In this document: piece by piece, positions 55,851-58,564 of the stretch
Position numbering within the stretch: position 1 is the first letter of the stretch
How the letters are laid out: every line of letters starts with the position of its first letter
Assembly: GCA_021730985.1 (NCBI GenBank)
Contig: JAKFYI010000014.1
Span: 1 to 64,000 of the forward strand
DNA from: Hyphomicrobiales bacterium
Lineage (GTDB): Bacteria > Pseudomonadota > Alphaproteobacteria > Rhizobiales > Xanthobacteraceae
Reading direction: 5' to 3'
Length of the DNA: 64,000 nt
Notes under the pieces: model-generated
Databases searched by the model: none
The model's input: only the letters and a program-made list of their open reading frames with translations
Told to the model about the DNA's origin: nothing
Program-made: the position numbers and the translations under genes

Positions 55851-57182
55851 ATGGTCTCTGCAGCGGAACAACTGGCGGCCAACCTCAACTTCTCGGCGCT
55901 CGCCAAGGCCGAAGAGCTCAAGAAGCGAATCTGGTTCACGCTCGGCGCGCTGCTGGTCTACCGGTTCGGCACTTACATCCCGCTGCCCGGCATCGACCCG
56001 GCCGCCTGGGATCAGATCTTCAAGTCGCAAGCCGGCGGCATTCTCGGCATGTTCAACATGTTCGCCGGCGGCGGCATCCACCGCATGGCAATCTTTGCGC
56101 TGAACATCATGCCGTACATTTCGGCATCGATCATCATTCAGCTGATGACGACGGTCTCCCCGACGCTCGAGGCGTTGAAGAAAGAGGGCGAGTCTGGCCG
56201 CAAGGTCATCAACCAGTACACCCGCTATCTCACCGTGGTGCTTGCGGTGTTCCAGGCCTACGGCATCTCGCTCGGACTGGAAGGCGCGGGCAACGTCGTC
56301 ACCGACGCCGGCTGGTTCTTCCGTATCGCCACCGTGATCACGCTGACCGGCGGCACCATGTTCCTGATGTGGCTCGGCGAGCAGATCACCGCGCGCGGCA
56401 TCGGCAACGGCATTTCGCTGATCATCATGGCCGGCATCGTGGCCGAACTGCCGTCGGCGATCGCGGGCATGCTCGAACTCGGCCGCCAGGGCGCGCTGTC
56501 CACCGGCCTGATTCTCATCGTCATCGTGATGTCGGTGGTGGTGATCGCCTTCATCGTCTTCATGGAGCGCGCGCAGCGGCGGCTGCTGATCCAGTATCCC
56601 AAGCGCCAGGTCGGCAACCGGATGTTCGAGGGCCAAGCCTCGCATCTGCCGCTGAAGCTGAACACCTCGGGCGTGATCCCGCCGATCTTCGCGTCCTCGC
56701 TGCTGCTGCTGCCGACCACGGTCGCGAACTTCAACGCGGGGCAGGGGCCGGAGTGGTTCGTCACGCTGACCACGCAGCTCGGTCACGGCCGCCCACTGTT
56801 CCTGATCCTCTACATCGGCATGATCATCTTCTTCGCCTTCTTCTATACGGCGATCGTGTTCAACCCGACCGAGACCGCGGAAAATCTCAAGAAGCACGGC
56901 GGCTTCATCCCGGGCATCCGGCCGGGTGAGCGCACCGCCGAGTACATCGACTACGTGCTCACGCGCATCACGGTGGTCGGCGCAGCCTATCTTTCGATCG
57001 TCTGCCTGATCCCGGAAATCCTGATCTCTTACGCGGCGGTGCCGTTCTACTTCGGCGGCACCTCGCTTCTGATCGTGGTCAGCGTCACGATGGACACCGT
57101 GGCGCAGATCCAGGGCTATCTTCTCGCGCACCAATATGAGGGCTTGATCAAGCGATCGAAGCTCAGGGGGAAGCGTAGATGA
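55851..57182 (+). CDS. secY: Protein translocase channel subunit SecY
   Basis: A 443-residue, ten-helix Sec channel. Conserved [16 protein letters not shown] and the [28 protein letters not shown] region, with the cytoplasmic loops C5/C6 ([24 protein letters not shown]) that bind ribosome and SecA. Pairs with SecE (16361). Its stop overlaps the adk start by 4 bp. Confidence 0.98.
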
Positions 57183-58030
57183 GGGTTGTGCTGCTTGGTC
57201 CGCCGGGGGCCGGCAAGGGCACGCAGTCGAAAACGCTGGTTGAACGCTACGGCATCGTGCAGCTCTCCACGGGCGACATGTTGCGGGCAGCGGTCGCCGC
57301 GGGAACGCCCATTGGATTGAAGGCCAGGGATTTGATGGCGAGCGGCGCGCTGGTGCCGGACGATGTCGTGGTCGGCATCGTCGCCGACCGGATCGAACAG
57401 CCGGACGCCAAGCGCGGCTTCATCCTCGATGGCTTTCCCCGCACCGTGCCGCAAGCCGAGGCGCTCGAGCGGATGCTGGCCGAGAAGGGCCTCAAGCTCG
57501 ATGCCGTAATCGAGCTCAAGGTCGATGAGGAGATGCTGATCCGCCGGATCGAGACGCGGGTGTTCGAGATGCGCTCGATGGGCCAGCCGATCCGCCCGGA
57601 CGACAGCCCGGAGGTGCTCAAGCAGCGCCTGGGTGCCTACCGGAGCCAGACCGCCCCGCTGGTCGCCCATTACGGCAAAAAGGGTGCCCTGCGGTCGATT
57701 GACGGCATGGCCCCGATTTCGGACGTGACGGCTGCCATCGGACGCGCGCTGGCCGACGCGGCCGCGTTCGGAGCGCCGAAGTCCGTCAAGACAGCCCCCA
57801 AGCGGGCTGCGGCAGCCGCCAAGGGCAAATCCAAGCCGGGCCGGGCCAAGACGGCCAAAGCCAAAACCCGCTCTAAAGCCGCCGCCAAGCCCGCCAAGGG
57901 GCGCTCCACGGCGTCCGCCAAGGCCGCCAAGAAGCCCCGCGCCAAGGCGCCCGCCGGCAAGGCCCGAAACAAGCCGGCAAGCCGCAAAAAAGCTGACGGG
58001 AAGGCGCGCTCGCAGAGGTTGACGAGGTGA
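57179..58030 (+). CDS. adk: Adenylate kinase with H1-like basic C-terminal tail
   Basis: Reversible phosphotransfer ATP + AMP to 2 ADP. P-loop GPPGAGKGT at residues 7-15, STGDMLRAA (AMP site) at 30-38, DGFPRT at 84-89, and a short lid ([20 protein letters not shown]) without zinc, as usual in alphaproteobacteria. The core ends near residue 197; then an 86-residue tail follows, with about 31 Lys/Arg and one acidic residue, Ala/Pro/Ser-rich with repeated AKP/KAK-type units, like histone H1 or AlgP tails. ATG overlaps the secY stop. Confidence 0.93.
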
Positions 58031-58079
58031 CCGGGAATCCCCTAATAACTTGCACATTCTGTCGGACACAGTTCGAACG

Positions 58080-58104
58080 ATGCCGCCCCTGTAGGAGGGG
58101 GCAT
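58080..58104 (+). other. Hairpin in the adk-rpsM gap
   Basis: ATGCC-G-CCCCT and GAGGGGGCAT arms around GTAG, about 85 bp before the rpsM start. The 159-bp gap is the longest between genes of the spc-alpha cluster; it may hold an attenuator or leader of the alpha genes. Confidence 0.45.
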
Positions 58105-58189
58105 GGCGTCGCGTTACCGCTTGCAGGCCCTCTTGCAACGGTGAAACAGCACCGCCCGGCTTTGCGCCGGCTGCAACAGGAGTAAGGCC

Positions 58190-58564
<375 letters not shown>

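Follow-up and report, generated by a model that had tools for sequence, protein, structure and literature searches.

The window, the 64,000-nucleotide stretch of contig JAKFYI010000014.1 (assembly GCA_021730985.1, a Hyphomicrobiales bacterium) that was analyzed here, contains an adenylate kinase gene (adk) with secY upstream and rpsM located 159 nt past the adk stop codon. The reading frame behind adk was named from its sequence as what we take to be ribosomal protein S13, and its translation was used to locate the S13 gene behind adk in the relatives. The features of the locus are collected in Table 1.

Table 1. Features at the 3' end of adk and the start of rpsM (positions in the window)
Feature	Position	Strand	Basis
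adk ORF	57179-58030	+	283 residues encoded, stop included in span
Adk catalytic core, short LID (residues 1-197)	57179..57769	+	PF00406, short-type NCBIfam models, alignment
Polybasic Ala/Lys/Arg/Pro tail (residues 198-283)	57770..58027	+	composition; 10/10 same-genus genomes
A6 tract within Lys codons, 28-33 nt upstream of -35; possibly UP-element-like	57986..57991	+	sequence
Putative -35 box TTGACG of rpsM promoter, inside adk ORF, reads Leu-Thr	58019..58024	+	conserved pattern
adk stop TGA, starting 4 nt past the end of the -35 box	58028..58030	+	sequence
Conserved GAATCCCCTAATAA with -10-like CCTAAT (58041-58046)	58035..58048	+	whole-pattern search
Predicted rpsM mRNA leader hairpin, within leader 58049-58189	58077..58112	+	alignment fold, coordinates by eye
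Alpha-operon ribosome binding site-like (Rfam RF00140), sub-threshold	58130..58222	+	weak match
rpsM (ribosomal protein S13), GTG start	58190..58564	+	ORF

Analysis of the Adk protein with profile models placed PF00406 on residues 5-169 with 189 bits (curated cut-off, 26.8 bits), and short-type NCBIfam adenylate kinase models scored above their cut-offs over residues 1-192 and 1-194. An alignment of 20 rows revealed invariant residues G7, P8, P9, G10, G12, K13, G14, and T15 in the motif GPPGAGKGT, which we take to be the P-loop, and invariant R36, R88, R123, R127, R139, and R150, presumably the substrate-binding arginines. Relatives in the Protein Data Bank (PDB) align across the core. Judged from its sequence, the part comprising residues 1-197 is a complete, standard short-lid Adk; the profile matches bear out what the sequence-only reading had claimed for it. 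The window copy is the sole Adk above the Pfam cut-off in the genome (4.45 Mb, 86% complete).

The tail that follows comprises 86 residues with 21 K, 10 R, 25 A, 7 P, one D, and no E, and its net charge is +30, versus +2 for residues 1-197; the median core charge of Adks is near neutral (+1). With 31 basic residues and one acidic residue, the tail has an H1-like composition, and the basic C terminus that had been read in frame with Adk was confirmed at its full length. The tail is probably disordered. Analyzed alone (57764-58027), it gave no Pfam or NCBIfam match above a cut-off. A simple gene-prediction script was applied to 464 kb of the genome (the window and 20 further stretches of 20 kb), and among the 419 predicted genes Adk alone ends in 86 residues of which 28% or more are K or R and no more than 5% are D or E. 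Since one gene in 419 has such an end, basic C termini of this kind are not a widespread trait of the proteins of this genome, as judged from the sampled tenth.

Occurrence of the tail in relatives and in known families

The tail was found in frame in all ten sampled genomes of the same genus (G001-G010; the Adk match in G002 begins at residue 30). For the wider comparison, approximately 100 of the 147 family genomes with an Adk match were read as DNA. From 199 Adk rows, 21 that shared the first 200 residues with another row and 2 that were cut by a contig end were dropped, together with 6 loci without S13 found downstream and 8 with a core identity of 55% or less (two being both), which left 164 non-redundant loci; the tailed loci L052 and L097 were lost through these filters. 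The tail is present in 79 of the 164 loci, the window counted. The Adk lengths are bimodal, with 85 proteins of 189-214 aa, 79 of 243-420 aa, and none between. Low-complexity repeats are generally error-prone, and an assembly error or frameshift might have produced such a tail. The recurrence of the same tail in the same frame in the ten congeneric genomes and the 79 loci makes this origin vanishingly improbable and rules it out for practical purposes. The sequence-only reading had seen no obvious assembly error and had proposed an alignment of close relatives, naming relatives made tailless by a frameshift at this place as evidence against the tail. Such a frameshift did not turn up: the tail proved conserved in every congeneric genome sampled. 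Conserved in its clade and without a second case among the 419 predicted genes, the tail is supported as the real H1-like basic extension that it had been taken for.

A scan of the collection identified Rhodoplanes piscinae, Pseudorhodoplanes, Afipia, and many Bradyrhizobium records as carriers; the family holding the window and the tail is, as we take it, Xanthobacteraceae in GTDB. Other named relatives (Bosea, Microvirga, Methylovirgula, Mesorhizobium, Aureimonas, Chelatococcus, Hyphomicrobium, and others) are without a basic tail in 23 of 23 distinct loci, with lengths up to 239 aa. All 28 distinct loci from other families of the order are tailless and at most 205 aa long; this count covers loci read as DNA, most other genomes of the order being known as search rows alone. 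In a quick maximum-likelihood tree of the 164 cores, all 80 tailed rows fell inside one branch of 103 rows with an SH-aLRT support of 84, which is not strong. Tailless rows make up 23 of the 103 rows within this branch and 61 of the 61 outside it; Rhodopseudomonas sp. B29 lies within the branch and has no tail. The tree requires a minimum of 13 tail changes, of which strongly supported branches force only 3. One gain of the tail followed by several losses is the simplest reading of this tree, and the count is soft.

More than one Adk match was found in 12 family genomes, and second full-length copies were read in three of them (G103, G118, and G127, the last with an extra partial match beyond the copies read). 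In both tailed genomes read, G118 and G127, the second full-length Adk is tailless, and no S13 or SecY was found beside it; in G103, both copies are tailless. In G009, a draft of the same genus with 5% listed contamination, a second, divergent Adk on contig C386 was matched in two pieces and perhaps lies on a contaminant contig.

Long tailed Adks are already modeled as NCBIfam NF010381 (PRK13808; 335 positions), which has the same core plus long tail as the window Adk and is described merely as adenylate kinase. Four of four tested tailed Adks of Bradyrhizobium and Afipia scored above its cut-off of 426 bits (437-512 bits), and the window Adk (369 bits), that of Rhodoplanes (360 bits), and the tailless Bosea protein (316 bits) scored below it. 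A class-wide search with this model gave matches in 274 of 289 genomes; among the matches listed, the window Adk alone extended past model position 229, in a sample in which its genome was the sole member of the family. One paper names PRK13808, as a weak domain similarity (p 9.44e-3) in part of a fungal protein (PMC8263066), and the tail part of the model may catch unrelated low-complexity sequence. Among the matches listed in a search of open-licence literature by titles and abstract starts, none dealt with this Adk tail or with the promoter overlap described below.

Basic tails of comparable kind are found on other bacterial proteins. AlgP of Pseudomonas aeruginosa has an H1-like C-terminal domain of 154 residues and associates with polyphosphate (polyP) granules and DNA (PMC9239181). 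This domain, as described there, resembles the Adk tail in being rich in Lys, Ala, and Pro, but it is built of KPAA repeats and has no Adk core. To our knowledge, AlgP is not known as an enzyme. The tail of mycobacterial HupB (HU with a basic tail) is required for nucleoid association (PMC5676037), and the lysine repeats of actinobacterial TopA confer processivity (PMC7398561). Both resemble the tailed Adk in that a basic tail is appended to a conserved core, whereas their cores act on DNA and the Adk core acts on small nucleotides.

Chlamydial HC2 (PF07382) is a further bacterial protein of H1-like composition. PF07382 gave no match to the tail alone at E up to 1, and the Adk tail was absent from the matches of a genome search at the same limit; an HC2-type identity was therefore rejected. 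The only place in the genome listed in that search (C2:149811-150110) lies inside a 373-residue open frame and matched with 25 bits, under the cut-off.

The 3' end of adk and the rpsM leader

The Adk proteins of the window and of all ten same-genus loci end in RLTK or RLTR. At the DNA level, the pattern TTGACG-N10-GAATCC-N2-TAATAA, which spans this end, has a single match in the genome, where the backward-pattern control has none; in the window, too, it is found once, versus 0.01 expected from shuffling. The terminal RLT[K/R] residues are encoded by the putative -35 box, which GAATCCCCTAATAA follows. Ahead of S13, all 79 tailed loci and 86 of 89 tailless ones have a TTGAC box, at nearly equal median distances (178 versus 177.5 nt), and the terminal motif is therefore a DNA-level one; for this set no identity cut was applied, gaps of more than 800 nt were dropped, and the box was taken by the best -10 match. 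Because a bare TTGAC is common by chance, the promoter call rests on the longer pattern and on the constant spacing. The B. japonicum promoter consensus is a TTG-N(16-18)-TATA-like pair, as given in PMC4842269. Compared with it, the window has TTGACG, a spacer of 16 nt, and CCTAAT, which agrees with TATAAT in 4 of 6 positions; a simple generic promoter scanner reported no site at the adk end. Conservation argues for a promoter at this place, and the end of the tail overlaps this putative conserved rpsM promoter.

The start of the box lies inside the adk ORF in 42 of the 79 tailed loci and after the stop codon in 37. Among the 42 boxes within the ORF, 35 are read in frame as Leu-Thr, and 7 supply their own TGA as the adk stop. 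For 78 of the 79 tailed loci, no more than 31 nt separate the stop codon from the first base of the -35 box. The Leu codon TTG accounts for 46% of Leu codons in tails versus 9% in cores. In L019 (genome G014), a tailless locus in the tailed branch, 1.2 kb separates adk from the TTGAC box, and an extra gene, by eye a beta-lactamase-like serine hydrolase, is positioned between adk and rpsM.

Upstream of the box, runs of A5 at 10-60 nt from the -35 were found in 54 of 79 tailed loci, versus 24/79, 37/77, and 34/74 in windows farther upstream; this within-tail control is a fairer figure than the comparison of tailed with tailless loci (54/79 versus 6/49), in which the excess is partly an effect of lysine content. 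Exactly 34 nt upstream of the -35, GGTCACGAA was found in 27 of 79 tailed ORFs (at least 7 of 9 bases), against a background within tails of 41 of 7,900 positions; these matches include no locus of the window's own genus. It also occurs at 34 nt, outside the ORF, in three of 54 tailless loci, namely, L047 (Rhodopseudomonas sp. B29) and L117 and L119 (both of genus g35), where the GGTCACGAA-like DNA is located between the adk stop and the TTGAC box. The L119 frame still reads AIKKVTKK ahead of a stop and looks like a decayed tail. A C-terminal protein signal, RLTK or KKVTKKRAK, was considered and rejected as the main cause of the conserved end, since the RLT residues coincide with the -35 box and the distance of 34 nt between this box and GGTCACGAA is the same inside and outside the ORF.

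Contrary to the sequence-only reading, the tail and the S13 gene are not directly adjacent; the gap between the two genes holds the rest of the putative promoter and the mRNA leader. This leader region is conserved. A hairpin fold was predicted from 10 loci with little covariation (term, -0.72), and RF00140 matched at the rpsM start with 24 bits (gathering score, 38; E 0.0023). The leader is possibly a regulatory leader of the S13 operon in this group.

Selection on the tail and its possible role

The 79 tails, picked by Adk length alone, contain 28-48% K+R and at most 5.3% D+E over 48-225 residues and have net charges of +19 to +71. Their Ala codons are mixed (GCC/GCG/GCT/GCA, 53/24/15/9%). 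Read in the +1 frame, the tail DNA encodes 36% R+K and 2.5% D+E, and in the +2 frame 18% and 14%, respectively. Because the +1 frame is also basic and acid poor, composition alone is weak evidence of selection at the protein level. In 44 overlapping close pairs, drawn entirely from the Bradyrhizobium part of the clade with none from the window's genus, the in-frame tail dN/dS was 0.08-0.62 in 43; the 44th had a saturated dS. The core dN/dS in the same pairs was at most 0.17. Gaps in the tails of these pairs are whole residues because proteins were aligned.

Charge changes were counted in 16 hand-picked pairs of distinct rows, 14 from the Bradyrhizobium side and none congeneric with the window, after removal of the last 18 residues. 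Among 170 single-base amino acid changes, 7 involved D or E (14.7% expected), 2 were K-E (7.1% expected), and 23 were K-R (7.4% expected); 333 multibase changes were set aside, the expectation weights transitions 2:1, and the alignments of some pairs are poor, with identity down to 0.28. These results indicate that in relatives the tail is apparently under in-frame purifying selection with fewer acidic changes than expected. What appears to be kept is positive charge and not sequence, and the length varies strongly.

With modest confidence, on the better side of even, we favor a polybasic tail that is under selection, anchors Adk to a polyanion, and has an end dual coded with a promoter. Within the window's family, the tail would have arisen on one or a few occasions and seemingly been lost several times. 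We infer that it is translated and disordered; such a long tail, with a charge in the range given above, would hold Adk electrostatically on nucleoid DNA, on RNA or ribosomes, or on polyP, and the interconversion of AMP, ADP, and ATP would then occur at the tether site, presumably to the benefit of the cell. The last codons and the A-tract would double as the -35 box and the upstream region of an active promoter of the rpsM operon, and this overlap, not protein function, would fix the terminal RLT[K/R]. By analogy with AlgP, HupB, and TopA, tethering of Adk by the tail is plausible. Adk has been linked to polyP metabolism through PPK in older biochemistry. Genes for PPK1 were found in 32 of 32 genomes checked and those for PPK2 in 31 of 32; since PPK1 occurs in tailed and tailless genomes alike, its co-occurrence is uninformative about the tail.

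Tails could also be by-products of stop codon loss, through which adk reads into A- and GC-rich DNA upstream of the promoter and acquires Lys, Arg, and Ala without a protein function. The closeness of the ORF end to the -35 start agrees with such an origin, as do last residues set by the -35 box, the GGTCACGAA copies kept outside the ORF in three tailless loci, the basic +1 frame, and the apparent tail losses inside the clade. The AAA share of Lys codons, 0.52-0.54 at 15-45 nt upstream of the -35 versus 0.22-0.48 at 45-255 nt, points the same way. Purifying selection in frame speaks against a by-product, however; the deficit of acidic changes persists outside the last 18 residues, and tails of 48-225 residues seem far in excess of what a promoter needs. 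We regard this origin as unlikely. A history combining the two is comparably speculative: A-tract DNA read as lysines would have seeded a tail that was later expanded and selected, Adk would be held on polyP or the nucleoid and recycle AMP and ADP from polyP near the chromosome, and the gene end and the promoter would have coevolved.

Binding to RNA or the ribosome rather than to DNA or polyP would couple the ATP supply to translation. Polybasic disordered tails generally bind RNA, and most of the loci read have adk flanked by secY and rpsM, so that Adk is likely made with ribosomal proteins. Tailless relatives share this neighborhood, however, so the neighborhood fails to explain the tail, and we hold an RNA- or ribosome-specific role to be doubtful. 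The tail might instead have no specific partner and serve just to keep Adk soluble, stable, or balanced in charge, consistent with a net charge conserved without sequence conservation and with a nearly neutral core. Tailless Adks suffice in the same family, and +30 seems extreme for solubility alone; this role appears quite improbable.

In the window bacterium and most sampled relatives of its group, the tail of Adk, an essential enzyme of energy metabolism, is apparently kept by selection, and the 3' end of adk likely doubles as the rpsM promoter. In textbooks, Adk is a soluble enzyme, and its activity is usually not assigned to any particular site in the cell. The tailed clade, Bradyrhizobium included, would offer a direct way to learn whether bacteria balance their adenylates at the nucleoid, at ribosomes, or at polyP granules. 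As a caution, the overlap with the promoter shows that in a low-complexity tail even the best-conserved residues can owe their conservation to the DNA.
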